Origin: Aquimarina amphilecti
GTDB taxonomy: Bacteria; Bacteroidota; Bacteroidia; Flavobacteriales; Flavobacteriaceae
Reading direction: 5' to 3'
Length of the DNA: 64,000 nucleotides
Assembly: GCF_900109375.1 (NCBI RefSeq)
Contig: NZ_FOAB01000003.1
Span: forward strand, 396,830-460,829
The translations under genes and the position numbers were made by a program. The notes under the pieces are model-generated. The model saw only the letters and a program-made list of their open reading frames with translations. It had not been told where the DNA came from and ran no database searches. Shown here in pieces: positions 2,012 to 18,049 of the stretch. Numbering within the stretch: the stretch's first letter is position 1; each line of letters starts with the position of its first letter.

Positions 2012-2548
2012 ATGAATAGAAAACTAAAAAACAGCGAACTTGATCGTAAAACGGTTGCTGAATTCAAAGAAGCAGAAAAAACTCCTTTGATAATCATTCT
2101 AGATAATATTAGAAGTCTCAATAATATTGGATCTGTCTTTAGAACTGCAGATGCTTTTTTAGTTAAAAAGATATATTTATGCGGTATTACTGCTACTCCA
2201 CCACATAAAGACATTCAGAAAACTGCATTAGGAGCTACAGAAACTGTAGATTGGGAACATGTAAAAGAGACTATAGATCTGGTTGCAAAATTACAATCAG
2301 AAAACATAAAAATTCTATCCATTGAACAAGCAGAAAATGCTACTATGTTACATGATTTTAATCCTGAATCTAATCAAACCTACGCGGTGATTTTTGGAAA
2401 TGAAGTAAAAGGTGTTCAACAAGATGTAGTTTCTGCAAGTGATAGTGTTATAGAAATCCCTCAGTATGGTAGTAAACACTCTCTAAACATTTCGGTAAGT
2501 ACTGGAGTAGTAGTTTGGGATTTGTTTTGTAAGTTTAAGGCTCACTAA
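2012..2548 (+). CDS. SpoU/TrmH-family RNA 2'-O-methyltransferase
   Basis: A 178-residue SPOUT methyltransferase showing all three family motifs: SLNNIGSVFRTADAF (the N-x-G-x-x-x-R motif), IFGNEVKGV, and SLNISVSTGVVVWDL. It should transfer a methyl group from S-adenosylmethionine to a ribose 2'-OH in tRNA or rRNA through a trefoil-knot fold. The exact target cannot be read from the sequence. I chose ATG 2012 over the TTG at 1982 because the first ten residues of the longer form (PTRHCKLLE) look like random translation. The gene sits 18 bases before the downstream dipeptidase, so co-transcription is likely. Confidence 0.9.
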   Translation: MNRKLKNSELDRKTVAEFKEAEKTPLIIILDNIRSLNNIGSVFRTADAFLVKKIYLCGITATPPHKDIQKTALGATETVDWEHVKETIDLVAKLQSENIKILSIEQAENATMLHDFNPESNQTYAVIFGNEVKGVQQDVVSASDSVIEIPQYGSKHSLNISVSTGVVVWDLFCKFKAH

Positions 2549-2566
2549 CTCAATTATTATTTCATA

Positions 2567-3880
2567 ATGAAACACATCTCTATACTACTGGTCATCTGTT
2601 TAACTTTAATTGGTTGCAACCAAAAAAAAGAAGAACCTAAAAAAGAAGAATCCATGACAGAGGCGCAACTAATCTCCAAGGCAAAAGAAATACATAAGAA
2701 TGTTATTACATTAGACACTCACTGTGATATTAACATAAAAAACTTTACCGACTCTATTAATTACACGCAAGATTTAAACTCTCAGATTACATTACCTAAA
2801 ATGAAAAAAGGTGGTTTAGATGTAGCTTGGTTTATTGTATACACAGGTCAGGATTCATTAAATACAGAAGGATTTAAAAAAGCCCATGAAATCGCTATGT
2901 CAAAATTTGATGCCATCCATCGATTAGTTGACACTCTAGCTCCTGATCAAATAGCATTAGCAAGGAATTCTGATGATGTACGCAGCATTCATAAATCAGG
3001 TAAAAAAGTGGCTATGATAGGTATTGAAAACGGATATCCTGTCGGAACCGATATCAGTAATATAAAAAGGTTTTATGACCTTGGTGCAAGATATATGTCA
3101 TTATCCCATAATGGTCATAGTCAACTGTGTGATTCTAATACTGGAGAAGCAGACGACGTTTGGCTACATAACGGACTAAGTGATCTTGGAAAAGAAGTTA
3201 TTGTAGAAATGAACAAATGGGGTATTATGATTGATGTATCTCATCCATCAAAAGAATCTATGCGCCAGATGATCAAGCTTTCTAAAGCTCCCATTATAGC
3301 TTCTCACTCCTCGGCTAGAGCATTATGTGATCACAGTAGAAATCTAGATGATGAACAACTACAATGGTTAAAAGAAAATGGCGGTGTTGTTCAGACAGTA
3401 GCTTTTACCTCATATCTTAATACAGAAAAGTTTGAAAAGAGAGTCGTTAAAGAAGTAGAAATCGGTAAACAGATAGCCGATTCTATGGGAGTAACTTGGC
3501 TAGAACGAGAAGAAGTAATGAATCTTAGTTCTGAAGAAAAAGAGACTTACTATGACTTTTTAGGAAAAATGGCGGCGATACGAAGAGCAAAGGTTAAAAA
3601 AATGGACGACCTTCCTCCTGCCGTTGATGTTATCGATTTTGTAAATCATATTGATTATATGGTAGATAAAATTGGTATAGAACACGTAGGTATTAGCTCT
3701 GATTTTGATGGCGGTGGCGGTATAGAAGGCTGGAGTGACGCATCAGAAACTTTTAATGTGACTTTAGAACTAGTAAAACGTGGATATACTGAAGCGCAAA
3801 TAGAAAAACTTTGGAGTGGTAACTTACTTCGCGTTTTAGACGAAGTTCAAAAAGTTGCTAGCGATCTTCAAAAAGGATAA
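2567..3880 (+). CDS. Membrane dipeptidase (peptidase family M19), lipoprotein
   Basis: A 437-residue zinc dipeptidase of the renal dipeptidase family. The N-terminus is a lipoprotein signal with lipobox LIGC (Cys17), so the enzyme should be anchored in the envelope. The HxD metal motif is TLDTHCDI (His52, Asp54). Further family motifs are IGIENGYPVG, SLSHNGHSQLCD, DVSHPS, IIASHSSARALCDHSRNL and GISSDFDGGGG. Members cleave dipeptides, often those with a D-amino acid at the second position. A charged linker (KKEEPKKEE) follows the lipid anchor. The gene ends one base before the stop of the convergent folK-dNK gene; a weak AT-rich palindrome spans the junction. Confidence 0.93.
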   Translation: MKHISILLVICLTLIGCNQKKEEPKKEESMTEAQLISKAKEIHKNVITLDTHCDINIKNFTDSINYTQDLNSQITLPKMKKGGLDVAWFIVYTGQDSLNTEGFKKAHEIAMSKFDAIHRLVDTLAPDQIALARNSDDVRSIHKSGKKVAMIGIENGYPVGTDISNIKRFYDLGARYMSLSHNGHSQLCDSNTGEADDVWLHNGLSDLGKEVIVEMNKWGIMIDVSHPSKESMRQMIKLSKAPIIASHSSARALCDHSRNLDDEQLQWLKENGGVVQTVAFTSYLNTEKFEKRVVKEVEIGKQIADSMGVTWLEREEVMNLSSEEKETYYDFLGKMAAIRRAKVKKMDDLPPAVDVIDFVNHIDYMVDKIGIEHVGISSDFDGGGGIEGWSDASETFNVTLELVKRGYTEAQIEKLWSGNLLRVLDEVQKVASDLQKG

Positions 3881-3881
3881 T

Positions 3882-5057
3882 TTAATCCTTCAATTGATCT
3901 AGAATCCAGATATAATCTAATCTGTTTGAAATAAAATCCCTTTCGGATATATCTATAATCTTAACATTAAGGTGTGACTGTGCTTTTATAAATCGCAAAT
4001 ACCCTTTATTGATTTTATCCAGATATTCGGCAGGGATTTTCTGTTCATAATCACGTCCCCTTTTTTTAATGTTTTCAAGCAAACGCTCTGTATTTTGATA
4101 CAAATATAAATAGAGACCTGGCTTAGGTAAATCTCTGTACATTATATCAAAAACCTTTTTGTACAATTTATATTCATCTTCCTGAAGCGTTACTTGGGCA
4201 AAAATCAGTGATTTAAAAACATCATAATCACTTACAACAAAATCTTTAAAAAGATCAAACTGACCAATATCATCTTGCAATCGCTGATATCGATCGGCTA
4301 GAAAGGACATTTCTAAAGGAAATGCGTATCGCTCCATATCCTCATAAAACTTTGGTAAAAAAGGGTTGTCTGCAAAACGCTCTAACACCAATTTTGCATT
4401 AAACTCTTCTGAAATCAAATGAGCTAAACTTGTTTTACCCGCACCAATATTACCTTCTATGGTCAAATATTGAACTGCAGATAATGAGTATTCATCTTTT
4501 GGATTTAATATAACCTCTTTTACCCTTGTTACCTCGGATGCATCCTGAGTACTCTCTAACAATTGACTCACTGTTTGTTCTAAAATCGGATGTTTATATC
4601 CCTCTGATATTTCTTCCAGAGGTTTAAGCACAAACATCCGATCTTGCATTGATGGATGTGGAACCACGAGCTTTTGAGTTTGTATAATTCCTTCAGAGGA
4701 AAAAACAACGTCTAAGTCTATTGTTCTAGCTTCATAACCTTGTTTATCTGTTCTGTTTCTTCCTAAAGAGTTCTCAATCTCTAATAATTTATCCAAAACT
4801 TCTTCAGTTGTATAAAAAGTCTTTATTAAGACACAAGCATTATAAAAATCATCACTGCTAAAACCCCAGGCTGGAGTTTGATAAACCCCAGAAATTTTCA
4901 CAACATCACCTATAGTATGATAAACAGCTCTTATAGCTTTTTGAAGATAATCTAACCGGTTTCCGATATTACTACCTAATGAAATATGTATATGATTGGG
5001 TGTTTTCAATTTCGGGTTTTTTATATTCTGATAATAACTCCGTATTTTTAAGAGCAA
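3882..5057 (-). CDS. folK: Fused HPPK (FolK) and deoxynucleoside kinase
   Basis: Two enzymes in one chain. Residues about 22-165 are 6-hydroxymethyl-7,8-dihydropterin pyrophosphokinase: SLGSNIGNRLDYLQKAI, the GRNRTDKQGYEARTIDLDVVF region (broken here for length: TIDLDVVF at 112-119) and VVPHPSMQDRMFVLKPL. Residues about 195-391 are a deoxynucleoside kinase: P-loop EGNIGAGKTS near 202-209, ERFADNPFLPKFY, and the LID-like KKRGRDYEQ. The first makes a folate intermediate, the second phosphorylates salvaged deoxynucleosides. This fusion is known in Flavobacteria. The start is doubtful: the longest frame uses TTG at 5057, and another TTG at 5009 would start immediately before the conserved domain. 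The gene is divergent from the YhhQ gene. Confidence 0.92.
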   Translation of the reverse strand: MLLKIRSYYQNIKNPKLKTPNHIHISLGSNIGNRLDYLQKAIRAVYHTIGDVVKISGVYQTPAWGFSSDDFYNACVLIKTFYTTEEVLDKLLEIENSLGRNRTDKQGYEARTIDLDVVFSSEGIIQTQKLVVPHPSMQDRMFVLKPLEEISEGYKHPILEQTVSQLLESTQDASEVTRVKEVILNPKDEYSLSAVQYLTIEGNIGAGKTSLAHLISEEFNAKLVLERFADNPFLPKFYEDMERYAFPLEMSFLADRYQRLQDDIGQFDLFKDFVVSDYDVFKSLIFAQVTLQEDEYKLYKKVFDIMYRDLPKPGLYLYLYQNTERLLENIKKRGRDYEQKIPAEYLDKINKGYLRFIKAQSHLNVKIIDISERDFISNRLDYIWILDQLKD

Positions 5058-5119
5058 ATTAAGGAAAACAAAACCACTTCACCTTATTTTTGCGCGAAGT
5101 ATTATGAACTAATTGTATT

Positions 5120-5827
5120 TTGAATAACACTCCTCTGAATCTAAAAGATAAAATCCTCGCATATAGAATTTACTTAATTCTTGGAGCCTTATTTATTTCA
5201 TCATTAGTAGCCTCAAACCTTATATTTCAGAAGTTTTTTTATTGGGATTTTTTCGGTGTGTATACTTTCGAGATTTCTGTTGGAATATTACCGTATCCTA
5301 TTACTTTTTTAATAACAGATATTATTAGTGAAGTATATGGAAAAAGAAAAGCTAACCAAATAGTTACCGCAGGTATTTTTGCTTCTTTCTTTTCGCTACT
5401 AATTATCTATGCTTCTAAAGAAGTTCCTGCGACCAGTTGGTCACCGATCAATGATGAAACATTTACAGAGGTTTTTGGTGCAACCGCAATAGCTGTTTTT
5501 GCATCGATGATGGCATATCTTTTTGCTCAATATATAGACATTCAGGTTTTTCACTTTTGGAAAAAAGTTACAAAAGGAAAACATCTCTGGATCAGAAATA
5601 ACTTCTCTACATTTTCTTCGCAATTTATAGACACACTTACTGTCCTGGTATTATTATGCTCTACAGGAATCATCGATTGGGATCGTTTTGGAATACTTTT
5701 ACTTAATGGTTTTTTATTTAAAATATTAGTAGCCGCATTAGACACTCCTATTCTTTACCTAAGTGTTTTTATACTAAGAAAAAGGTTCAAATTAAAACAA
5801 GGAGGAGAATTAGCATTAGAAATTTAA
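5120..5827 (+). CDS. yhhQ: Queuosine precursor transporter, YhhQ/VUT family
   Basis: A 235-residue polytopic inner-membrane protein with about six hydrophobic segments. The family pattern VASNLIFQKFF, PYPITFLITDIISEVYGKRKA and the later FSSQFIDTLTVL and FKILVAALDTPILYL are typical of YhhQ proteins, which import queuosine precursors (preQ0/preQ1) for tRNA modification. The start appears to be TTG at 5120 because no ATG lies before the first transmembrane segment. It reads divergently from the folK fusion across about 62 bases, which must hold both promoters. Family assignment is solid; the substrate is inferred from the family. Confidence 0.88.
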   Translation: MNNTPLNLKDKILAYRIYLILGALFISSLVASNLIFQKFFYWDFFGVYTFEISVGILPYPITFLITDIISEVYGKRKANQIVTAGIFASFFSLLIIYASKEVPATSWSPINDETFTEVFGATAIAVFASMMAYLFAQYIDIQVFHFWKKVTKGKHLWIRNNFSTFSSQFIDTLTVLVLLCSTGIIDWDRFGILLLNGFLFKILVAALDTPILYLSVFILRKRFKLKQGGELALEI

Positions 5828-5866
5828 AAAATCTAACAAATAGTTAACTCAAATACCGCAACATTG

Positions 5867-5874
5867 TACCTTTG
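5867..5874 (+). promoter_or_regulatory. TAnnTTTG promoter element upstream of the AsmA-like gene
   Basis: TACCTTTG, 32 bases before the ATG at 5907. The -33 position carries TTA rather than TTG, so the match is partial. Confidence 0.4.
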
Positions 5875-5906
5875 TAAATCGTTACTTTACACAAAAAGCA
5901 ATCATA

Positions 5907-8537
5907 ATGGTTAAAAAAGCCCTCAAAATCTTCGGTATTCTTATAGTTATTCTTGTAATAGCAGTTATTTCTATTCCTTTACTTTTTGGAGGAACCATTA
6001 AAGATAAAATACGATACTTAGCAAACGAACACGTAAATGCAAAAGTCGATTTTGCAGATGTAGACATTAGTTTACTCAGAAGTTTTCCGAAAGCATCTGT
6101 AATCATTGATGAGCTTTCTATTATTAATTTCGCCCCTTTTGAAGGAGATACTTTAGCGTATGCAAAAAAAATATCTTTGGACATGTCGATAAAAGAACTA
6201 TTTAAAGGCGCAGAAGAAGCTATTAGTGTTCAAAAATTCATAATCGATGAAGCTAATATTGCTATAAAAACAGATTCATTAGGAAATTCCAATTTTGATA
6301 TTACTAAAGCATCAGAAGAAACAAACACAACCGACAACGAAGAAGGAGGTTCTTTTACTTTCGAATTAGATCATTACGAAATAAATAACAGTAAGTTATT
6401 GTACAAAGATGATGTAGGAAAGATTGCTTTATTAATGACCAACGTAAACCATAGTGGAGATGGATCCTTATCCGGAGAAAATATATTATTAGACACTGAA
6501 TCTAGTTCTGAAGTCTCTTTTAGCTTAGATGACACTCAATACCTGAATAAAAATGCACTAAAACTTGACGCAGAATTAGAACTAGATCTAGAAAATCAAC
6601 GATACGCTTTTAAAGAAAATAAAGCACTGGTAAATCAATTGCCATTAGAATTCGAGGGATTTGTACAATTATTTGAGAAGTACACCGATGTTGATCTTAG
6701 TTTTAAAACACCAACTTCAGATTTTAAAAACTTCCTAGCGGTTATACCAGAAGTCTATGCTAAAAACCTAGATGGCGTACAAACAACAGGAGATTTTTCG
6801 GTTAATGGTGTTATTAAAGGAAAAGCTGATGATGTATATATCCCAAAAATGGATATCCAAATTGCCTCGCATAATGCATCCTTTAAATATCCTGACCTAC
6901 CAAAAAGTGTTCAGAATATAAATATAGATACACAAATAAAAAATGATACCGGTTTAGCTGATGATATCTATGTCAATATCGGAAATCTTACTTTTAAAAT
7001 TGACCAAGATACTTTTGCTGCCAAAGGAAGTTTACGAAACATCACGACAAATATGATCGTAGACATGGCAGTAAACGGAACCTTGAATCTTGCTAATTTA
7101 GATAAAGCATACCCTTTAGAACTAGAACAACAACTTAATGGAATACTTAAAGCTAACGTAAATACGAAATTTGATATGTTATCTTTGGAAAAAGAACAAT
7201 ATCAAAATGTAAAAAGTACTGGTACCATTAGTTTGGATAAATTCACATATGCATCTCCAGATCTGCCGAGTGAGATAAATATAGAAAAAGCCAATGTCAA
7301 TTTTAAGCCAGAAACTATTACTTTAGACAAAATGGAGGTTACTACAGGAAAATCGGATCTTGCTGCTGAGGGAACTATAAACAACTTAATGGGATTCTTA
7401 TTTTCTAAACAAGATCTTAAAGGAAATTTTGATGTTACATCAGAAGTTTTTGCTGTAAATGATTTTATGGTGGCTGGAAATGAAACAACTGAAGAACAGA
7501 CCCAAGACCAAACAACAAATGACGCTCTTAAAATCCCATCTTTTATTGATGCTACGTTGAATTTTGATGCAAAAAAAGTAATTTATGATAATCTAGAATT
7601 ACGAAATACCAAAGGGAGTGTAAAAATAAATGACGAAACAGCGTATTTACAGAACGTAACATCTAATATTTTTGATGGTGGATTAGCGTTTAATGGGAAA
7701 GTATCTACTAAATCTGAAACTCCGAATTTTGGGATGAATCTAGATCTAAGCAAAATAAATATTGCAAAATCATTTTCAAGCCTAGAGTTATTGCAAGGTT
7801 TAGCACCTATCGCGAAAGCACTAACCGGAGCTTTAACAACACAGATCAACCTAAATGGTAACCTAAATAACGATCTAACTCCTGTTCTTAATTCTGTAAA
7901 AGGAAATGCATTAGCAGAAATATTAGATGCTAAAGTAAACACTGCGCAAACACCACTACTATCTAACTTAGATAGTCAGTTAAATTTTTTAGACCTAGAC
8001 AAGCTAAACTTAAAAGACATTAAGACATCTCTTAGTTTTGATGATGGAAAAATCAATGTAAAGCCATTCGATTTCGATATAGAAGGCATTAAAATAACTG
8101 CAGGAGGAAGTCACAGTTTTGATATGAACATGGATTATAACGTATCATTGGATGTCCCTGCCAAATATTTAGGTAACGAGGTTGGTGGATTACTTTCTAA
8201 ACTTAGCGATCAAGAATCTAAAGACATGAAAGTAGCACTTCCAATTGGAATATCAGGAAACTTTTCGAACCCAAAAATCAATCTTAATACTGGTACAGCA
8301 GTTAAGCAACTTACACAACAAATTATAGACAAGCAAAAAGAAAAAGCAACCGGTAAAATCGTTGATGAAGGCACAAAAGTACTGACCGATTTATTAGGAG
8401 GTTCTAAAAAAGATAAAGACTCTACAAAAACTACCACTGACAAGCCGGAAGACAAATTAAAAGACGCTGCTAAAGATATTTTAGGAGGTTTCTTAGGTAA
8501 GAAAAAGAAAAAAGATACAACAGGAACTAAGAACTAG
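5907..8537 (+). CDS. AsmA family protein (large, inner-membrane anchored)
   Basis: An 876-residue protein with one N-terminal transmembrane helix (about residues 8-30, ILIVILVIAVISIPLLF) followed by a long, mostly beta-strand region. The start (IKDKIRYLANEHVNAKVDFADVDISL, split across the AsmA pattern of repeated DVDISLLRSFP-type strands) and the C-terminal FDIEGIKITAGGSHSFDMNMDYNVSLDVP block match the AsmA/AsmA2 families. Such proteins are bridge-like proteins tied to lipid movement and outer-membrane assembly. The last 50 residues are rich in Lys, Asp and Thr and look disordered. It forms its own transcription unit, with no co-directional gene within 80 bases upstream. Confidence 0.85.
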   Translation: MVKKALKIFGILIVILVIAVISIPLLFGGTIKDKIRYLANEHVNAKVDFADVDISLLRSFPKASVIIDELSIINFAPFEGDTLAYAKKISLDMSIKELFKGAEEAISVQKFIIDEANIAIKTDSLGNSNFDITKASEETNTTDNEEGGSFTFELDHYEINNSKLLYKDDVGKIALLMTNVNHSGDGSLSGENILLDTESSSEVSFSLDDTQYLNKNALKLDAELELDLENQRYAFKENKALVNQLPLEFEGFVQLFEKYTDVDLSFKTPTSDFKNFLAVIPEVYAKNLDGVQTTGDFSVNGVIKGKADDVYIPKMDIQIASHNASFKYPDLPKSVQNINIDTQIKNDTGLADDIYVNIGNLTFKIDQDTFAAKGSLRNITTNMIVDMAVNGTLNLANLDKAYPLELEQQLNGILKANVNTKFDMLSLEKEQYQNVKSTGTISLDKFTYASPDLPSEINIEKANVNFKPETITLDKMEVTTGKSDLAAEGTINNLMGFLFSKQDLKGNFDVTSEVFAVNDFMVAGNETTEEQTQDQTTNDALKIPSFIDATLNFDAKKVIYDNLELRNTKGSVKINDETAYLQNVTSNIFDGGLAFNGKVSTKSETPNFGMNLDLSKINIAKSFSSLELLQGLAPIAKALTGALTTQINLNGNLNNDLTPVLNSVKGNALAEILDAKVNTAQTPLLSNLDSQLNFLDLDKLNLKDIKTSLSFDDGKINVKPFDFDIEGIKITAGGSHSFDMNMDYNVSLDVPAKYLGNEVGGLLSKLSDQESKDMKVALPIGISGNFSNPKINLNTGTAVKQLTQQIIDKQKEKATGKIVDEGTKVLTDLLGGSKKDKDSTKTTTDKPEDKLKDAAKDILGGFLGKKKKKDTTGTKN

Positions 8538-8931
8538 ACCTATTTTAATCTATTGTTTATTAAAGATTCTTGTCATTTTTTTAATTAAAATGAATTAATA
8601 CTTCATTTTGCGCAAAAATCGCTAAAGTAACTACGCATCAATAGTATTTAATTTTTTTTACGTTTATTTCTTAGTACATTAGTACTGGGAAAACTACAAA
8701 AAAAGAACGGGATTTTAATTGGGTATATCAATATTTACAAACCTTTTAAAATCATATTATTAGAACTTCACGAACAATATCTCGTACAATAAAGTGTTAT
8801 TTTACTAAAGAAATAATAGTAGTAACACAATAAATTTATTAAAACTGGATTAACTATTTAGTAAAGTTAGATCCAACACCTCTAACTCTTATAATTATAA
8901 TTTTACCCTAAAATTAAACTCTGCAAAAGTT
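8538..8931 (+). other. Intergenic region, 394 bases, upstream of module copy 1
   Basis: AT-rich, with no convincing ORF. It holds an 8-bp AT-only inverted repeat (8587-8594 with 8602-8609), which is weak as a terminator for the AsmA gene. The last part (8897-8920) contains the string TTTTACCCTAAAATTAAACT, which recurs with small changes at 13134-13154 before module copy 3. No TAnnTTTG box was found. Confidence 0.6.
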
Positions 8932-10200
8932 ATGAAACTAGCTATATTCCCCATTGCTTTTCTTATATTTTTCCCTTCACTCTTATTGTCTCAAAACTCG
9001 ATAAATGACAATCCTCTTCGATGGACGAAAGGATGGACTAATTTTGATCCTAATCACGAAGCATATCCCGAACCTGACAAGGATATTCCAAACATAATTG
9101 ACAGAGATACTTATTTATCCAATGACTTGGTATACCTCCTATCTGGAAATACGTATGTTACTAATGGAGCTACGCTGACAATACAAGAAGGAACAATAAT
9201 AAGATGTGATACAGAAACTTCTACAAGTTTAGTAATTAGCAAAGGATCCCAGTTAATAGCTGGAGGTCTTAAAGGACAACCTATAGTTTTTACATCTAGT
9301 AAATCTCCTAAAGCTAGAAAAAGTGGAGATTGGGGAGGAATAGTTATTGCAGGATCAGGAACTATTAATTCGCCGTCGGAAGCAGGAATTATTGAAGGAG
9401 ATTTTCTTCCTCAATATTCTCTGTATGGAGGAAATGATAACAATGAGATGACTGCAATTATAACTTATGTAAGAATCGAATATGCAGGAAAAAAAATTAA
9501 TCAGTCAAAAGAATTAAATGGGCTATCTCTTTATGCATTGGGGAACAAATCTATTCTTAACAACATTATGATTAGTCATTCTGCAGATGACTCTTTTGAA
9601 TTTTTTGGAGGAACATTGAATACAAACAACTTAATTTCCTATAAAGCAAAAGATGATGATTATGATTTTACTTTAGGATATAGAGGAGAATTATATAATA
9701 TTATAGCAATTAGACATCCCTACATATCAGATGCAAGTGGATCTTATGCAATTGAAATAGATGGATATGATAAAAAGATGGGATTAACATCTAAAAATCC
9801 ATCAGCAGTAAAAATTTCAGAAGCTACCTTAATTAACTTATCTGACAATAGTAATTATCAACATACAACAGCTGCAATTTCTTCTAAAAATTTAGCTAAA
9901 CTAAATTTTCTAGATTCAAAAATATCAGGATTTGCCAATGTGGTGAAATTTGACAACTCTTATAGATCTTATACAGATTTAGCAAATTCATTTTCTTTAG
10001 AAAATAGTATCTTTAACGTACATGATACAAATGTTTTAACCCGATTAGAACCAAAATCAGAAGCGCAAAAATTACTAAAATATAATATGTTTACCACACA
10101 ATTCAGAAATGTCACAGATCTATTTGAAAAACCTTTAGATAACAAAAACCCTGAGTTTACATTAAAGCAATCTCGGGATAGTTACACAGTAATGCAGTAA
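8932..10200 (+). CDS. Secreted beta-helix-like protein, module copy 1 (gene A1)
   Basis: A 422-residue protein with a signal peptide (about residues 1-20, ending LLLSQ). After a short lead with WTKGWTNFDPN it becomes repetitive beta-strand sequence: NTYVTNGATLTIQEGTII, SKGSQLIAGG, PIVFTSSKSP, SGDWGGIVIAGSGTI. This is the pattern of a family of extracytoplasmic right-handed beta-helix proteins common in Bacteroidota. An acidic KDDDYDF stretch and HPYI are shared with the two paralogues downstream, as is the C-terminal end YTVMQ. No type IX secretion C-terminal domain or transmembrane anchor is seen. It pairs with the small gene 36 bases downstream. Function unknown; a ligand-binding or surface role is only an inference. 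Confidence 0.8.
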   Translation: MKLAIFPIAFLIFFPSLLLSQNSINDNPLRWTKGWTNFDPNHEAYPEPDKDIPNIIDRDTYLSNDLVYLLSGNTYVTNGATLTIQEGTIIRCDTETSTSLVISKGSQLIAGGLKGQPIVFTSSKSPKARKSGDWGGIVIAGSGTINSPSEAGIIEGDFLPQYSLYGGNDNNEMTAIITYVRIEYAGKKINQSKELNGLSLYALGNKSILNNIMISHSADDSFEFFGGTLNTNNLISYKAKDDDYDFTLGYRGELYNIIAIRHPYISDASGSYAIEIDGYDKKMGLTSKNPSAVKISEATLINLSDNSNYQHTTAAISSKNLAKLNFLDSKISGFANVVKFDNSYRSYTDLANSFSLENSIFNVHDTNVLTRLEPKSEAQKLLKYNMFTTQFRNVTDLFEKPLDNKNPEFTLKQSRDSYTVMQ

Positions 10201-10236
10201 AATTAAATTTTACTACAATAATTATTTAATAAATTA

Positions 10237-10677
10237 ATGATGAAGTCGATTACCACAGTATTTTTTTTCCTTTTTATAGTTACAGTTAGTTTTTCTCAAA
10301 CCAAAAAAAACATTCTTTTTGATCAAAGTACAATGATCAACAAGTTTCATACTATTGACGAACTAGAAGATTTAAAAAAAGGAGAACTTGTTAAATTATA
10401 TATAGAACGAGCTAATGAGATTATTACCGTACTACCTTATATAGCACTAACTAATGAGGCCAATGTAAGTCTTTCTGATATTGGAATTAAAGAAAACTCT
10501 GATAATCAAAAACTATTAAAAAAGCATCATGAAACTACTACAGATGCTTTTGGTAGTACGAGTAATCTTATAACAGAGTTTGTACCCTATGCGGATACCG
10601 AAAAAATAATATGGTCTATTTTATATTATGAAGAAATGATCAAAAAAATCCGGATAGGAGTTAACGGAAACTTCTAA
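10237..10677 (+). CDS. Small secreted helical protein, module copy 1 (gene B1)
   Basis: A 146-residue protein with a signal peptide (ending TVSFSQ) and a mature part that looks mostly alpha-helical. Features shared with both other copies: KFHTIDELEDLKKGELVKLY, EIITVLPY, LSDIGIKE, the acidic-aromatic VPYADTEKIIW, and YYEEMIKKIRIG. By eye it is about 60% identical to copy 2 over the mature region. No known domain recognised and no cysteines in the mature part. It follows gene A1 by 36 bases and is followed at once by a hairpin terminator, so A1-B1 form a two-gene transcription unit. Confidence 0.75.
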   Translation: MMKSITTVFFFLFIVTVSFSQTKKNILFDQSTMINKFHTIDELEDLKKGELVKLYIERANEIITVLPYIALTNEANVSLSDIGIKENSDNQKLLKKHHETTTDAFGSTSNLITEFVPYADTEKIIWSILYYEEMIKKIRIGVNGNF

Positions 10678-10686
10678 AAAATATTT

Positions 10687-10713
10687 AAAAACAGCCTTCT
10701 GGCTGTTTTTTTT
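10687..10713 (+). terminator. Rho-independent terminator after module copy 1
   Basis: Perfect stem AAAACAGCC / GGCTGTTTT with loop TTCT, followed by a run of T. It ends the A1-B1 transcript. Confidence 0.9.
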
Positions 10714-10963
10714 ATCTCTATATAATAATCTTCACAGTCCTCTGAGACTTATCAAAAAACACAGAGAATTACATCTATAGGAAACACAAACCTAATCCTT
10801 ACCAGCTTATCAATTCTTACAAAAAAATGTTAATAAATCATTTTTCCTGTAATCTTTATTAGGTCTTATCGAACTAAATGGTGTTACTAGTTAACAAATC
10901 TTAATAAAGAAAACTGATCAATTACAAAAGATTCAGCAAAAGTATAACTTAAAAAAAGGAGTT

Positions 10964-12220
10964 ATGAAGACAAGAGAATTACTAAGTTTATTTTTATTTA
11001 TTACAATTTCGGTTTCGGGCTTATCTCAAAATGATTTCAATCCTACTAACATGAAATGGATGAAAGATTGGACTAATTTTTCACCGAACAACACAAATTA
11101 CCCTAGTTACGAAGAACAACTACCAAACATCATTAATAAGGATACTTATCTAAAAAGTGATATTATTTATTTTATGTCTGGTGATGTATATGTAATTAAT
11201 AATGCCACGTTAACCATAGAAGAAGGTACGTTAATAAAAGCAGACACCGAAAAATCCACAAACCTTATTGTTTCTAAAGGAGCTAAACTTATCGCTAACG
11301 GAACAAAAGCTTCACCAATTGTATTTACCTCAAATAAATCTAGAAATTCTAGAAAAAGCGGTGATTGGGGAGGAATAACTATTATTGGATCTGGAAAAGC
11401 TAATACTATAGAAGGAGAAGGAGTTGTAAAAGGAAAATTCAATCCTTTATACACCATATTTGGTGGAAACAAAATGGATGAAGAAACTACTATATTGAAG
11501 TATGTAAGAATCGAATATGCTGGAAAATCCACTAATGGATTATCGTTATATGCACTAGGCAACAAATCCGTTGTAGAAAACATAATGGTAAGTTATTCTG
11601 CGGATGACTCTTATGAATGGCATGGAGGAGCCTCTACCTCAAGAAATCTAATTTCTTATAAATCAAATGACGATGATTTTGATTTCACACAAGGATATAG
11701 AGGAGAGCTTATCAACATACTAGCCATTAAACACCCATATATCACAAGCAACAATGGATCATACGCTATTGAAGTAGATGGATATAATAAAAATTTAGGT
11801 TTTGACAATTCTAAAATACTTTCTAGTATAGATATTACAGGAGCCACATTAATTAGTCTCGCCGATGAAAGTAATTATAATCATACTAGAGCTGCAATTT
11901 CTATAAATAATTTAGGTGAACTTTACCTTAATAACTCCAATATATCTGGATTCTCCGATGTAGTAAAATTAGACAAGACATTTTCAACATTAAGAATGAT
12001 AGAAACAGCTTTCAAATTAGACAATAGCTTTTTTAATGTACATAAGGAAGGCGTAGTCACTCAAAACAATATCCAAGACGACACATTTAATCTTTTAAAG
12101 TACAATAGGTTTACTAAAAAGTTTCAACAACCTCAAGAAATTTTTAGTGATCCGTTAGATAAGGTTAACCCTGATTTTTCTCTAAAAAATTCATTAAACA
12201 ACTACATGGTAGTTCAGTAA
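10964..12220 (+). CDS. Secreted beta-helix-like protein, module copy 2 (gene A2)
   Basis: A 418-residue paralogue of A1. The signal peptide ends about residue 21 (SVSGLSQ), then WMKDWTNFSPN, LPNIINKDTYL, NLIVSKGAKLIANGT, PIVFTSNKS, RKSGDWGGITIIGSG, NGLSLYALGNKSVVENIM, SNDDDFDF, HPYIT and the C-terminal NYMVVQ. It lacks an insertion of about eight residues that A1 has before the GLSLYALG block. An AAAAAAAGGAG tract lies just before the ATG, a possible purine-rich ribosome site, unusual in this phylum. No anchor or known catalytic motif seen. It is followed after 26 bases by gene B2. Confidence 0.8.
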   Translation: MKTRELLSLFLFITISVSGLSQNDFNPTNMKWMKDWTNFSPNNTNYPSYEEQLPNIINKDTYLKSDIIYFMSGDVYVINNATLTIEEGTLIKADTEKSTNLIVSKGAKLIANGTKASPIVFTSNKSRNSRKSGDWGGITIIGSGKANTIEGEGVVKGKFNPLYTIFGGNKMDEETTILKYVRIEYAGKSTNGLSLYALGNKSVVENIMVSYSADDSYEWHGGASTSRNLISYKSNDDDFDFTQGYRGELINILAIKHPYITSNNGSYAIEVDGYNKNLGFDNSKILSSIDITGATLISLADESNYNHTRAAISINNLGELYLNNSNISGFSDVVKLDKTFSTLRMIETAFKLDNSFFNVHKEGVVTQNNIQDDTFNLLKYNRFTKKFQQPQEIFSDPLDKVNPDFSLKNSLNNYMVVQ

Positions 12221-12246
12221 ACGATCCAACCACAAAAAATAAGACC

Positions 12247-12687
12247 ATGAAAAAGACAACCATATTATTACTATTACTACTAACCATAGGTTCCTTAAGC
12301 GCACAAAATAACAAGAAAGGAATTCTCTATGACAATGATAAACTAATTAATAGGTTTCATACTATTGATGAATTACAAGACCTTAATAAAGGTGCATTAA
12401 TAGAATTATATTTAGAACGTACAAGAGAGATTTTTATAGTCTTACCCTACCTATCATTATCCAATCAACCTGGAACTAGCTTAAGTGATATTGGAATTAA
12501 AGAAGACTCTGACAACATTAAAATAGTAGAAAAAAATAACGAAATAGCAGATAGAGCATTCGTTTATACTACAAACACAGTAAAAGAACTAGTACCTTAC
12601 TCTGATACGGATAACATCATATGGGCTATTCTATACTTTGAAGAAATGATCAAAAAAATGAGATTAGGGAAGAATGGAAATATATAA
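12247..12687 (+). CDS. Small secreted helical protein, module copy 2 (gene B2)
   Basis: A 146-residue paralogue of B1 with a signal peptide ending GSLSAQ. It keeps the hallmark segments RFHTIDELQDLNKG, VLPYLSLSN, SLSDIGIKEDSDN, LVPYSDTDNIIWAILYFEE and MIKKMRLG. It has the same length as B1 and aligns without gaps over the mature region. The exact preservation of the A-B pairing and order in all three copies suggests that A and B proteins work together; that is inference. Function unknown. Confidence 0.75.
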   Translation: MKKTTILLLLLLTIGSLSAQNNKKGILYDNDKLINRFHTIDELQDLNKGALIELYLERTREIFIVLPYLSLSNQPGTSLSDIGIKEDSDNIKIVEKNNEIADRAFVYTTNTVKELVPYSDTDNIIWAILYFEEMIKKMRLGKNGNI

Positions 12688-13157
12688 CATATTCTTTGGA
12701 CAAAGAGCTTAAAAAAACATCGACAAAAGGCATAAAAATCACGTTTATAATTCATTTACATAAACGTGATTTCACTTTTCTTATGATATAACATTTCAAT
12801 AAAAAGCAAAATTTCAATAAATCTCAAAAACTTGGAAATATTATAAATACCTAAAAAACAATTATTTATATAATTTTCTATTTTTTGTTTTAATTTAAAT
12901 ACCATCAAATATTTTTTTTGTTTATTTTTTTTACAAAAAAATTAAACAAATCGTAAAATACTGAAAACCAATACTGTAAAACCGTCATAAGTAGGAATAA
13001 TACTCTTAAAGTTTTCATAATTATTGCTATATTAACGACGAACGTACATATTTTACGGTAAACACGTAACCAACTCTACAAAAAGTATAGTAACTTAGTG
13101 ACCCTAAAGTAGAAGAGAGAATTTTCTTCTAAATTTTAACCCCAAAATTAAACTTTT
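12688..13157 (+). other. Intergenic region, 470 bases, between module copies 2 and 3
   Basis: Very AT-rich, with long A and T runs around 12800-12960 and no plausible ORF. It holds the inverted repeat at 12736-12772 and, next to the downstream start, the leader string also found before copy 1 (here 13132-13154). No TAnnTTTG promoter with a matching upstream box was found. Confidence 0.6.
12736..12772. terminator. 13-bp perfect inverted repeat, probable terminator of module copy 2
   Basis: AAATCACGTTTAT at 12736-12748 is exactly complementary to 12760-12772, with an 11-base loop. The following T run is broken (TCACTTTTC), so it is weaker as an intrinsic terminator than the hairpins after copies 1 and 3. 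A protein-binding palindrome is an alternative. Confidence 0.6.
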
Positions 13158-14423
13158 ATGAAACTAAGATGCGCCTTAATTACGTCTATTTTATTATGCA
13201 TTACTATTTTAAATTCTAACGCACAGGATTTCAATACTAATGACAGCAAATGGACAAAAGGTTGGACCAATTTCACACCAAATACTACAAATTATCCCGA
13301 AGCAGAAGAAAAGCTTCCAAATATCATAACAGAAGACACTTACTTAAGCAATAACACAGTATACCTGATGTCTGGTAATGTATATGTTATAGGTAATGCG
13401 ATACTAAGCATCCAAGAAGGAACGGTAATAAGAGGAGATCATGAAAATCCTGCAAATCTTATTATTAGTAAAGGATCTAAATTAATCGCAGTTGGAACAG
13501 AAGCATATCCAATTGTTTTCACCTCTAATAAAGCACCAAAATCAAGGGCAAGCGGAGATTGGGGTGGTATAATAATTGCTGGATCAGGAAATGTGAATTC
13601 GGTTTCTGGAAATGGTATTATCAAAGGAGATTTTAACCCTCAGTACGCTGTATACGGCGGAAACAATCCAGATGAACAAACTACTGTTCTCAGATATGTA
13701 AGAATAGAGTTTTCTGGTAGTAAATCAAAAAGTAGTAGCGGTTTATCATTATTTGGAATAGGAGCAGCATCTATTATAGATCATATAATGGTTAGCTACT
13801 CAGGACAAGATTCATTTAACTGGACTGGAGGTAATAACAATATAAGAAATATGATTTCTTACAAAGCGGAAGATGATGATTTTCAAATATCTGAAGGTTT
13901 TAAAGGAGATCTTGATCAATTAATGGCTGTACGTCATCCGTATATTAATAGTCCAAAGGGTTCATTTGCAATAGAAATAGATGGTTATAACAAAGAACAA
14001 GGATTCTTGAAACCAAACGCAATTACTGATGTAACAATTACTAATTCTACTTTTGTTAATCTATCTGATAATTCTAATTATATGCACACTGCATCTGCAA
14101 TATCTGCAACAAATTCTGCTTTAGTTTATCTACATAATTCCAAGATTTCTGGATTTTCAAATGTTGTAAAATTTGATGAATCGTACACCTCTTTAGCAGT
14201 TCTTGAAAGAGCTTTCAAAATGGATAATAGTTTTTTTAATATTCATGGTGAAGGTGTAGAGGTTAGTTACAAACCAAATGCAGGAGTTTTAAATATTTTA
14301 AAATATAATAGATTTACCAAAGATTTCGTTAGTGTTGACAAATTATTTGAAGACCCAAAAAGTAAATCAGTGCCAAAATTTCAATTGAAGAAAGCCATGA
14401 ATAATTATATGGTAATGCAATAA
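13158..14423 (+). CDS. Secreted beta-helix-like protein, module copy 3 (gene A3)
   Basis: A 421-residue paralogue of A1 and A2. The signal peptide ends about residue 22 (NSNAQ), then WTKGWTNFTPN, LPNIITEDTYL, NLIISKGSKLIAVGT, ASGDWGGIIIAGSGNV, SSGLSLFGIGAASIIDHIM, AEDDDFQISEG, HPYINSPKGSFAIEIDGYNK and the C-terminal NYMVMQ. Compared with A1/A2 it has drifted in the middle: YALGNKS is FGIGAAS, and the acidic stretch ends FQ instead of YDF/FDF. Same family, with no catalytic motif recognised. The gap to B3 is 84 bases, longer than in the other copies (36 and 26). Confidence 0.8.
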   Translation: MKLRCALITSILLCITILNSNAQDFNTNDSKWTKGWTNFTPNTTNYPEAEEKLPNIITEDTYLSNNTVYLMSGNVYVIGNAILSIQEGTVIRGDHENPANLIISKGSKLIAVGTEAYPIVFTSNKAPKSRASGDWGGIIIAGSGNVNSVSGNGIIKGDFNPQYAVYGGNNPDEQTTVLRYVRIEFSGSKSKSSSGLSLFGIGAASIIDHIMVSYSGQDSFNWTGGNNNIRNMISYKAEDDDFQISEGFKGDLDQLMAVRHPYINSPKGSFAIEIDGYNKEQGFLKPNAITDVTITNSTFVNLSDNSNYMHTASAISATNSALVYLHNSKISGFSNVVKFDESYTSLAVLERAFKMDNSFFNIHGEGVEVSYKPNAGVLNILKYNRFTKDFVSVDKLFEDPKSKSVPKFQLKKAMNNYMVMQ

Positions 14424-14507
14424 GATATTACCGCTATTTAAAAATAACACTTTTTTGTCCCAGGTTCCCCAAATCCTGTAAATGAATTTAACACGGCAAT
14501 ATAAATT

Positions 14508-14954
14508 ATGCTTAAATCTAAACTATTAATGAGTTTCATCTTTTTTCTATCAATTCAATATATGAATGGTCAGCAAAAAGATGAAGCCATTTTTTTTAAA
14601 CAAAAAGATCAAATTACTAAATTTCATACGATAGGTGACCTTGAAGATTTAAAAAAAGGGCAACTCATCAAACTTTATCAAGATCGTATAAAAGAAATCA
14701 TAACCGTTCTTCCATTTCTATCTCTTACCAATGAACCAGGAGTTAGACTAAGTGACTTAGGAATTAAGGAAGATTCTGGTCATATAAAATCTCTTAAAAA
14801 AAGCGTAGAAACGAATAAAGAAGCTATAGATGCAACTCAAAATTCTATTGAAGAACTCGTACCCTATGCAGATACCGAGAAAATTATATTAACAATCTTA
14901 TACTTCGAAGAAATCATAAAGAAAATGAGAATCGGGGTTACCAAAAACTTTTAA
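14508..14954 (+). CDS. Small secreted helical protein, module copy 3 (gene B3)
   Basis: A 148-residue paralogue of B1 and B2 with a signal peptide ending about MNGQ. It retains KFHTIGDLEDLKKGQLIKLY, ITVLPFLSLTNEPGV, LSDLGIKEDSG, ELVPYADTEKII, LYFEEIIKKMRIG. The tryptophan present in B1 and B2 after IIIW is replaced (IILTILYFEE). A strong terminator follows. No domain recognised. Confidence 0.75.
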   Translation: MLKSKLLMSFIFFLSIQYMNGQQKDEAIFFKQKDQITKFHTIGDLEDLKKGQLIKLYQDRIKEIITVLPFLSLTNEPGVRLSDLGIKEDSGHIKSLKKSVETNKEAIDATQNSIEELVPYADTEKIILTILYFEEIIKKMRIGVTKNF

Positions 14955-14971
14955 AACAAAAGTTTATATAC

Positions 14972-15014
14972 AAAAAAAGAAAGGACAGTATTGATACTGT
15001 CCTTTCTTTTTTTT
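14972..15014 (+). terminator. Rho-independent terminator after module copy 3
   Basis: Long stem AAAGAAAGGACAGTA / TACTGTCCTTTCTTT with loop TTGA, flanked by A and T runs. It separates the module from the LysE gene. Confidence 0.92.
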
Positions 15015-15074
15015 AAATTCATAAAATATCATATATAACTGTAAGGCTATTTTAGAAATAACTACTAATAAAGC

Positions 15075-15707
15075 ATGATTACATTCTATCTTTTTCTTGG
15101 TATTTTAACTTCAGTCGCTGGAGCACTTCCACTTGGAGCTGTTAACATAGCTGTAATCAATACTACCATTAAAGAAGATACCCAAAAAGCATTTCGTATT
15201 GCGTTAGCTGCCGGTATTGGCGAGGTATTATTGGCACTCTTTGCACTCCATTGCAGTATGGAACTTACAGATTTTTTCGAAAACAATAAATGGATTCAAG
15301 TAGTAATCATTTCCATCTTCCTAATTATAGGAGTTTATTTTTTAGCTCGAAAAAACAAAAAAGAAAATATTAATAAAGTTAAAAAGAATAGACTTCAAAA
15401 ATCTAAATTTTTAACTGGCTTCTCTTTAGCATTTTTAAACCCTCCTGTAATAATATATTGGATAGTAGCAATATCACTAACAAACAAACATCTGTTTGAA
15501 CTTACTCTTTATACGCCATTAATTGCATTATTTCTTTTCTTTTCTGGTATATACTTAGGTAAAATAGGCACTTTGTATTTATACAGCAAATGGGGTAACA
15601 AAATGGCTAATAGATCTGACAATTCTAAGACCAAATTATTTAAGATTATTGGTATCGCTCTAATAGTAATTTCTGTTGTCCAAGGATTAAAATTCTTTAT
15701 AGTCTAG
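15075..15707 (+). CDS. LysE/RhtB family amino-acid exporter
   Basis: A 210-residue inner-membrane protein with about six transmembrane segments. The start ILTSVAGALPLGAVNIAVINTTI carries the LysE/RhtB glycine-proline pattern, and FSLAFLNPPVIIYWIVA is the second conserved block. Members export amino acids or related metabolites. It lies between the module terminator and a PLP decarboxylase gene 97 bases downstream. Substrate unknown. Confidence 0.85.
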   Translation: MITFYLFLGILTSVAGALPLGAVNIAVINTTIKEDTQKAFRIALAAGIGEVLLALFALHCSMELTDFFENNKWIQVVIISIFLIIGVYFLARKNKKENINKVKKNRLQKSKFLTGFSLAFLNPPVIIYWIVAISLTNKHLFELTLYTPLIALFLFFSGIYLGKIGTLYLYSKWGNKMANRSDNSKTKLFKIIGIALIVISVVQGLKFFIV

Positions 15708-15771
15708 AGACACAATTAACATATACATTTTTAAAACTGTTTTATACCTATTTTAATTTTCAAAAACAGTC

Positions 15772-15779
15772 TACATTTG
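15772..15779 (+). promoter_or_regulatory. TAnnTTTG promoter element upstream of the PLP decarboxylase
   Basis: TACATTTG, 25 bases before the ATG at 15805. No good TTG box at the usual distance, so it is a partial match. Confidence 0.4.
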
Positions 15780-15804
15780 CATACGATTTTGATAAAAAGA
15801 TGCA

Positions 15805-17244
15805 ATGAAGGAAAACTACCTAAATCCAGAATTAATATTATCCAAAGATGACATGAAACAATATGGCTATACGATTATAGATCATATAGTGGAACATTTT
15901 GACAACCAAGATTCTAAAAAACCTGTAGCCATAGCTACTCGTGAAGAAATGGATAATTTATTAACAGAAGATATTCCTAATCTTCCTACAGATGCAAATA
16001 AAGTTCTTGATTTTGTAATGAAGGAAATTATTCCGCAAAGTACTATTGTATCACATCCTAAATCATTCTCTTTTGTCCCAGGGCCGAGTAATTATATTAG
16101 CGCGATGGCAGATACAATAGCAACTGGTTTCAATATTTTCTCTGGAGGTTGGGCAGCTTCACCTGCAGCCGCAGAGTTAGAAATTCTTACAATGAATTGG
16201 CTGTTAGAAATTTTTGGATTTGGAACCAAGCAAGGAGGAGGTATTTTTACTAGTGGTGGATCTATGGCCAATTTGACCGCATTGGTCACCGCTAGAAGAA
16301 TTAAATGTGGAGACGATTTCTCTAAAGCGGTGATTTATTTATCTGATCAAGCACATTCTTCTAACATTAAAGCAATTAAAGTAATTGGTTTTAAAAAGAG
16401 TCAAATAAGGATCATACCTACTGACTTAGAATTCAAAATGTCATTAAACAAATTAAAAAATGCCATTGCCAAAGATCGACTTCAAGGATTAGAACCTTTT
16501 TGTATGATCGCTTCTGCGGGAACTACTAACACAGGAACAGTAGATCCGTTAGACGAAATTGCAAAAATTTGTACCAAAGAAAAACTATGGTTCCACATAG
16601 ATGGCGCCTATGGCGGTGCTGCAATATTAGCAGATAACGGAAAAGAGCTACTAAAAGGTATTGAAAAAGCGGATTCTTTGACTGTAGATCCACATAAATG
16701 GTTTTTTCAGCCTTATGAAATGGGGTGCTTACTTGTTAAAAACCACAATTGGTTAAGTGGAACATTTAGTGAAAAACCGGAATATTTAAGGGATGTAGAA
16801 GGAAATGAATCTGAAATCAATTTTTATGACCACGGAATTCAATTAACTCGTCGTTTTCGTGCCTTAAAATTTTATATGTCCTTAAAAACTTTTGGTTTGG
16901 ATTCTTTTAAAAAAGCTATTCAATATAATATAGAATTAGCGGAACAAACTGAAAACACCCTTAGAGAAAGCTCTAAATGGGAAGTCATTTCTCCAGCTAC
17001 GTTAGCGGTTATTAATTTTAGATATCACCCTATTGATAAAAATTTATCTGAAAAGGAGATTGATCTTATTAATCAGAAAATCTCTGAAAAAATAATGAAT
17101 TCTAGAGAGGCACTATTAGTTACTACAGTACTCTTAGGACAAGTAGTATTGAGAATGTGTTTAATTAATCCAAGAACCACTATTAATCATATCACAGAAA
17201 CTATTGAACAATGCCAGTCATATGGTGATGAATTACTTGCTTAG
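15805..17244 (+). CDS. Group II pyridoxal-phosphate amino-acid decarboxylase
   Basis: A 479-residue protein of the aromatic-L-amino-acid/glutamate decarboxylase group. Visible features: HPKSFSFVPGPSN near 84-96, TSGGSMANLTAL (149-160, phosphate binding), His184 in DQAHSSNIKA (stacks on the PLP ring), HIDGAYGGAA with Asp266 (ring nitrogen), and DPHKWFF with the Schiff-base Lys298. It should decarboxylate an amino acid to an amine and CO2. The substrate (aromatic, glutamate, diaminobutyrate-like) cannot be decided from sequence alone. The upstream LysE-type exporter could carry a related compound, but that is only suggested by proximity. Confidence 0.9.
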   Translation: MKENYLNPELILSKDDMKQYGYTIIDHIVEHFDNQDSKKPVAIATREEMDNLLTEDIPNLPTDANKVLDFVMKEIIPQSTIVSHPKSFSFVPGPSNYISAMADTIATGFNIFSGGWAASPAAAELEILTMNWLLEIFGFGTKQGGGIFTSGGSMANLTALVTARRIKCGDDFSKAVIYLSDQAHSSNIKAIKVIGFKKSQIRIIPTDLEFKMSLNKLKNAIAKDRLQGLEPFCMIASAGTTNTGTVDPLDEIAKICTKEKLWFHIDGAYGGAAILADNGKELLKGIEKADSLTVDPHKWFFQPYEMGCLLVKNHNWLSGTFSEKPEYLRDVEGNESEINFYDHGIQLTRRFRALKFYMSLKTFGLDSFKKAIQYNIELAEQTENTLRESSKWEVISPATLAVINFRYHPIDKNLSEKEIDLINQKISEKIMNSREALLVTTVLLGQVVLRMCLINPRTTINHITETIEQCQSYGDELLA

Positions 17245-17254
17245 AATATACTGA

Positions 17255-18049
17255 TTAGATCATAGTTAACTGTACCACATATCCTTCATTATTTCTGACA
17301 TTAAAAACAGTATCGTCATCAAAAATTAAATATTGTCCTTTGATGCCTTTTAAAACACCTGAATATTCTGGTGTTTTCTCTAAATTTAAACTTTTCAATT
17401 TACCAGGGTAATCCAATACTGGGAAATCAAGTTCAGTTTCTTTATTATTCTCAATAAAGTACTCTTTAGCTTCTTCTGGAATGAATTCTCTAAGTTTATC
17501 GCGGTATTCTAATAAGTCCTTATCTTCAATCTCGTTTTTAAGCATTTTACGCCAATTGGTTTTGTCCGCTACGTGGTCTTTAAGAGCTACTTCTGTAATT
17601 CCGGCCAAGTATCTATTTGGAACCTCAACAATTTCTATAGCTTCATGAGCTCCTTGATCAATCCATCTCGTTGGAACTTGAGATTTTCTTGTAACACCTA
17701 CTTTTATATTACTTGAGTTCGCTAAATATACAATGTGAGGCTGAAGCTGTGCCTTCTTTTCATAATCCAAATCTCTATCTTCTATACCTAAATGCGCTTT
17801 ACTCAATTCTGGACGCATTACCCAGTCTCCTACTTGAGGTTGATTATAAAAATCATCATAACAATATCCCTGTCGATATATTTTTTTGTTTTCACCGCAA
17901 GCCAAACATTTATATCCTATAAATTTTATACTTAACTTTTTATTCAATAATTGATTTACATGTATAAAGTCTGAATCAAACACTAAATAGTATTGGATTG
18001 GATTCCCTATCTCCGTCTGCATTTTAGTAAGTACTCCCTGATATTGCAT
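17255..18049 (-). CDS. DUF2797 domain-containing protein
   Basis: A 264-residue protein with a zinc-ribbon-like pair of cysteines (KCLACGENKKIYRQGYC, about residues 48-64) followed by the conserved block HIVYLANSSNIKVGVTRKSQ and VPTRWIDQGAHEAI, typical of DUF2797. That last block resembles the GIY-YIG-like start of small nucleases, but no function is established. No signal peptide, so cytoplasmic. It converges on the decarboxylase gene (10 bases apart) and is divergent from the GH3-family gene. Confidence 0.85.
   Translation of the reverse strand: MQYQGVLTKMQTEIGNPIQYYLVFDSDFIHVNQLLNKKLSIKFIGYKCLACGENKKIYRQGYCYDDFYNQPQVGDWVMRPELSKAHLGIEDRDLDYEKKAQLQPHIVYLANSSNIKVGVTRKSQVPTRWIDQGAHEAIEIVEVPNRYLAGITEVALKDHVADKTNWRKMLKNEIEDKDLLEYRDKLREFIPEEAKEYFIENNKETELDFPVLDYPGKLKSLNLEKTPEYSGVLKGIKGQYLIFDDDTVFNVRNNEGYVVQLTMI

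Follow-up and report, generated by a model that had tools for sequence, protein, structure and literature searches.

Three tandem gene pairs homologous to remG and remF, detached from the gliding operon, in Aquimarina amphilecti

The window, a stretch of 64,000 nucleotides of the Aquimarina amphilecti genome (assembly GCF_900109375.1, contig NZ_FOAB01000003.1, positions 396,830 to 460,829 of the forward strand), carries three tandem pairs of genes for secreted proteins, designated A and B. The array stands behind an AsmA-family gene on a contig referred to below as C8, one of 16 in the assembly. Its genes and associated features are as follows, in window positions:

8834 to 8906, plus strand: block upstream of A1, candidate promoter region, kept in 9 Aquimarina genomes
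8932 to 10200, plus strand: A1, RemG homologue copy 1, ORF of 422 aa (profile match 586 bits; dN/dS 0.05-0.06), with a signal peptide and a predicted right-handed parallel beta-helix (modelled at pLDDT 64; aligned by VIA-align to beta-helix proteins with Z about 17)
10237 to 10677, plus strand: B1, RemF homologue copy 1, ORF of 146 aa (dN/dS 0.03-0.06), with a signal peptide and a predicted small all-helical domain (model pLDDT 83; no informative PDB match)
10687 to 10710, plus strand: terminator-like hairpin after B1, 10-bp stem plus T-run, z -6.6
10821 to 10859, plus strand: block upstream of A2, candidate promoter region, kept in 9 Aquimarina genomes
10964 to 12220, plus strand: A2, RemG homologue copy 2, ORF of 418 aa (571 bits; dN/dS 0.04)
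12247 to 12687, plus strand: B2, RemF homologue copy 2, ORF of 146 aa (187 bits; dN/dS 0.03-0.05)
12736 to 12772, plus strand: hairpin after B2, 13-bp stem, no T-run, z -2.9 for a 101-nt stretch
13034 to 13072, plus strand: block upstream of A3, candidate promoter region, kept in 8 Aquimarina genomes; includes CGAACGTACAT and ACGTAACC
13158 to 14423, plus strand: A3, RemG homologue copy 3, ORF of 421 aa (572 bits; dN/dS 0.02-0.06)
14508 to 14954, plus strand: B3, RemF homologue copy 3, ORF of 148 aa (187 bits; dN/dS 0.04-0.10)
14972 to 15013, plus strand: terminator-like hairpin after B3, 19-bp stem, U-rich 3' arm, z -6.9

The array had been described from the sequence as three A-B pairs of similar size, on the same strand and in the same order, and this layout was confirmed, with A proteins of 418-422 aa and B proteins of 146-148 aa. 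The A copies share 53.6% (A1/A2), 52.0% (A1/A3) and 53.3% (A2/A3) identity, and the B copies 53.4% (B1/B2), 57.5% (B1/B3) and 48.6% (B2/B3); the divergence expected of the B copies was thus found, while the estimate by eye of about 60% for B1 and B2 proved too high. The alignment of B1 with B2 scored 416, far beyond chance, the best of 30 shuffles scoring -9. All six proteins were found to bear the signal peptides expected of them, judged by eye to be Sec-type N-termini without a lipobox cysteine. No NCBIfam match to the T9SS sorting domains TIGR04183 or TIGR04131 was obtained for the six proteins at E values up to 1, and searches of A and B against Pfam and NCBIfam matched no model, returning just sub-threshold chance hits. 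Comparison of this strain with A. latercula or another Aquimarina gave dN/dS values of 0.02-0.10 over all six genes, and purifying selection acts on every one of them. Synonymous divergence from A. latercula (window 2012-18049 against locus L013) is 0.02-0.16 upstream of the AsmA gene and jumps to about 1.0 through the array and on its downstream side, which points to a recent recombination tract with its end near 5907-8932. In the same part of the window, the ORF at 3882-5057 looks by eye like a fusion of a FolK-like pterin pyrophosphokinase and a deoxynucleoside kinase.

Structure models were compared with known structures using Foldseek and VIA-align. For A the model is a right-handed parallel beta-helix, with a pLDDT of 64 over the whole chain and 78-96 for the first turns, and it matched lyases, tailspikes, epimerases and the adhesin PfbA with Z of about 15-17; A is thus a generic parallel beta-helix, and no enzyme is singled out. 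Its conserved residues (Gly, Trp, Pro) seem structural, with no evident catalytic set. The model of B is a small helical protein (pLDDT 83) whose weak matches were to unrelated helical proteins alone, with Z at most 5.6. Sequence searches of the PDB with the A and B profiles gave nothing meaningful.

The original prediction had treated the pair as an unnamed module and B as a protein with no described role, and gene order in relatives contradicts both statements. In forty wider loci, three constant genes follow B-A in most genera. The first product, about 480 aa long, bears a T9SS type B sorting domain, the second (SprD) is a PorP/SprF-like barrel that has a long coiled tail, and the third is a giant protein made of repeats. 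The sampled loci are therefore ordered B-A-sprC-sprD-sprB, and sprF comes next in genome G121, the sole operon read to its end, where the products after B-A are SprC (479 aa, T9SS type B CTD), SprD (820 aa, PorP/SprF-like barrel), SprB (3544 aa) and SprF (355 aa). The gliding operon of F. psychrophilum is remF-remG-sprC-sprD-sprB-sprF, THC0290_0021 to 0026 (PMC9723704), and remF and remG are named as gliding-operon genes in both F. johnsoniae and F. psychrophilum (PMC9723704, PMC5350093). Because the two gene orders are the same, B is identified as RemF and A as RemG, an assignment by gene order and size. In most relatives that have the pair, it opens the operon that encodes the surface adhesin SprB and proteins supporting it.

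Among 110 genomes with a strong SprD match, 106 have A on the same strand 1530-2040 bases upstream of sprD, a gap that fits one gene, sprC; the four exceptions are one split contig and three Aquimarina-type genomes. The SprD threshold is to be read with the caveat that one Aquimarina SprD is in the profile and raises Aquimarina scores; the SprD proteins of two Aquimarina congeners score 343-365 bits, as against 322 for the best genome lacking remFG. A and B without a strong SprD occur in three sampled genomes alone, which are 76-84% complete. Together with the handling of remFG-sprCDBF as one operon in promoter work (PMC9723704), these counts make it very improbable that A-B is a general-purpose pair of secreted proteins with no connection to gliding and an incidental place before sprC, even though no curated domain ties A or B to motility, A lies within a wide DWGG beta-helix superfamily also found beside TonB receptors, and solo copies exist elsewhere. 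A link to polyphosphate, considered because ppk1 or sixA flanks the pair in some genera, was dropped since these neighbours vary while sprC, sprD and sprB are constant. The "two novel tandem spreading genes" of F. collinsii, pep25 and lbp26, are different genes (PMC9950754).

Presence of the family was surveyed in 397 Flavobacteriaceae genomes, with A counted as present above 430 bits. A and B occur in the identical 113 genomes, and 116 of the 124 B genes adjoin A on the same strand, in the order A then B in the Aquimarina type and two other genomes and B then A outside these. A draw of 395 genomes from across the phylum yielded B in the Flavobacteriaceae alone. Eight B and 14 A genes of the 397 genomes stand alone, all of them extra copies beside a pair except in G335, where the pair is split and A stands ahead of sprC without B. 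The proposal that A and B are kept together is thus upheld by genome content and by adjacency, and the solo copies show that the pairing is not absolute.

Several of these solo genes have neighbourhoods of their own. Solo A genes at L063:7786-10035, L065:8008-10241, L069:7867-10090 and L070:8055-10303 are preceded not by B but by a secreted protein, conserved and 292-296 aa long, which makes a different partner for an A paralogue. Solo B genes (L051, L052, L054, L055 and L058, at about position 9300) form one clade in a conserved neighbourhood that includes a family of secreted proteins of 388-441 aa, and are candidate RemH orthologues. Longer RemG-like proteins (551 aa) at L064:8158-9813 and L067:8648-10303 also have their own conserved neighbourhood.

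In the four Flavobacteriaceae lacking remFG that were read (L106, L107, L108 and L110), the sprC-sprD-sprB operon is of another subtype, in which SprC is larger (about 730-780 aa) and SprD distinct. The RemFG pair is therefore probably not needed for gliding as such, and the pattern suggests that it belongs to one sprC-sprD-sprB subtype rather than to gliding in general.

The closest known system is the remFG-sprCDBF operon of F. psychrophilum and F. johnsoniae, in which two secreted genes are likewise held together and, as published, the pair stands directly upstream of sprC-sprD-sprB, the place of the wider A/B family in relatives. Aquimarina differs in that remG comes first, the pair is detached from the operon, and its three diverged copies stand in tandem, each with a conserved upstream region of its own. 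RemH and RemI are paralogues of RemF and RemG, named alongside them as redundant gliding genes in F. johnsoniae. They may be likened to the solo B clade and the solo A genes; these solo copies stem from the operon-type clade, in contrast to the Aquimarina copies, which come in pairs and fall in the other clade. More distant are the DWGG beta-helix lipoproteins of Bacteroidota (such as those at L009-L011, which adjoin TonB-dependent receptors), with which A has the beta-helix superfamily and a GDWGG motif in common. Proteins of the L009-L011 type are 28-34% identical to A, beyond the training set the DWGG lipoproteins score no more than 331 bits, as against 430 or more for RemG, and, unlike A, they have lipoprotein N-termini and no B partner. 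Distant DWGG lipoproteins are encoded on contig C5 of the source genome.

In the source genome, all three B copies lie inside the window and all three A copies on C8. The sprC-sprD-sprB-sprF genes are on C5, where a small lipoprotein gene and, further up, an mnmG-like gene come before them and remFG is absent from the upstream side; they encode SprC of 678, SprD of 1157, SprB of about 5000 and SprF of 325 aa (L100-L101), and SprD and SprF match TIGR03519. A second SprB-like protein of 2182 aa comes after sprF (L100:9444-15992). Since sprCDBF on C5 is without remFG and the pairs stand alone on C8, the window copies were filed as homologues or paralogues of RemG and RemF, not as operon members. 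The three-pair array is present in eight of eight named Aquimarina genomes, A. latercula DSM 2041 and A. litoralis among them, with three B copies each and no other B; in L019 it is interrupted by contig ends. The Aquimarina pair is thus detached, reversed in order (A before B) and usually tripled. G351 has a single pair, and G177 has a B-A-B arrangement in which the first B is of the copy-1 type and its A is missing (L022:1501-1944, L087), so a pair can be broken. A literature search on Aquimarina with remF returned no paper on this array; the family and the operon are already known, and the novelty lies in how the Aquimarina genes are arranged and in the exact co-occurrence of A and B.

In the A tree and the B tree alike, the A-then-B pairs (with those of G271 and G084) are split from the operon pairs with support of 100, and copy 1 branches separately from copies 2 and 3. 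Because the two trees mirror each other in duplication order, the pairs were duplicated as units, in agreement with the suggestion that they had been kept together through duplications; judged from the same trees, the duplications predate the split of the sampled array-bearing Aquimarina. The Aquimarina pairs form a separate deep clade on branches of 1.04 (A) and 0.81 (B) changes per site. An operon pair and an A-then-B pair coexist in G084, and the detached type is therefore either an old paralogue or a transferred one. Given the deep clade and this coexistence, the Aquimarina pairs may be paralogues of ancient origin whose role has shifted. The stronger version of this, in which they left gliding for another envelope job such as polysaccharide binding or processing by the beta-helix of A, would fit the deep clade, the presence of both kinds in G084, the lack of linkage to sprCDBF and a fold common to many polysaccharide lyases, epimerases and tailspikes. 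However, the source and eight other Aquimarina genomes have no further B and yet all have sprD, so this reading requires the operon function to have disappeared in just these genomes, and the structural look of the conserved residues of A also tells against it; we regard it as unlikely.

Each copy does have a downstream hairpin of its own, as had been noted, but their terminator character is uneven: those after B1 and B3 have the U-rich 3' arms typical of terminators, and the one after B2, without a T-run, is doubtful as a terminator. The blocks upstream of A1, A2 and A3 are conserved across Aquimarina, yet mutually dissimilar. The housekeeping flavobacterial box TAnnTTTG is absent upstream of the A genes in the window and is not conserved elsewhere, and a sigma-70 promoter scan came out at chance level. 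In F. psychrophilum, the two tested promoters of remFG-sprCDBF are a sigma-54 promoter and an alternative one (PMC9723704). Taken with the dissimilar conserved blocks and the missing TAnnTTTG box, this makes it likely that the three copies would be under separate control.

The copies might instead be purely redundant, a matter of gene dosage in which the work is not divided among them. Rhodes, Pucker and McBride named RemF and RemG in 2011, in a paper whose title classes these F. johnsoniae paralogues among "redundant gliding motility genes", and the Aquimarina copies are alike in size and in selection. Their age and identity of only about 50%, and upstream regions that are each conserved but different, argue for some division instead. 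Pure redundancy, which is otherwise compatible with the explanation preferred below, is a possibility to which we give less than even weight.

Published work links both genes to gliding through operon membership and expression. Expression of remF and remG drops in F. psychrophilum biofilm along with that of sprC, gldJ and gldL/M/N (PMC5350093), and RemF was found in the surface fraction, where both it and SprB are more abundant in gldD and gldG mutants (PMC5682007). The gliding papers cited here assign no mechanism to RemF or RemG. The explanation we prefer, and hold with good confidence, is that the three paralogous RemG-RemF sets serve the SprB gliding system, are partly redundant and are probably differently expressed. 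RemG and RemF, which carry no known T9SS sorting domain, would pass through Sec to the periplasm or outer membrane, RemG being a beta-helical rod and RemF small and helical. The two models and the operon context favour an accessory pair of the SprC-SprD-SprB complex; RemG and RemF, presumably in contact as a matched pair, would assist this adhesin complex as it travels along the surface of the cell. The three Aquimarina pairs would then be partly redundant, separately regulated versions of that accessory pair, and their roles may differ.

More tentatively, RemG and RemF could be an obligate, physically matched pair for one SprC-SprD subtype, of which the three Aquimarina versions tune or switch the gliding complex according to conditions. 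The perfect co-occurrence, the tie to one SprD subtype, and the detachment and triplication in Aquimarina give RemG and RemF the look of a matched pair rather than of two dispensable extras, despite their "redundant" class. Because a single 6-kb array, away from sprCDBF, holds all copies, the pair could be removed without touching the adhesin operon, and Aquimarina would offer a clean genetic test for RemFG.
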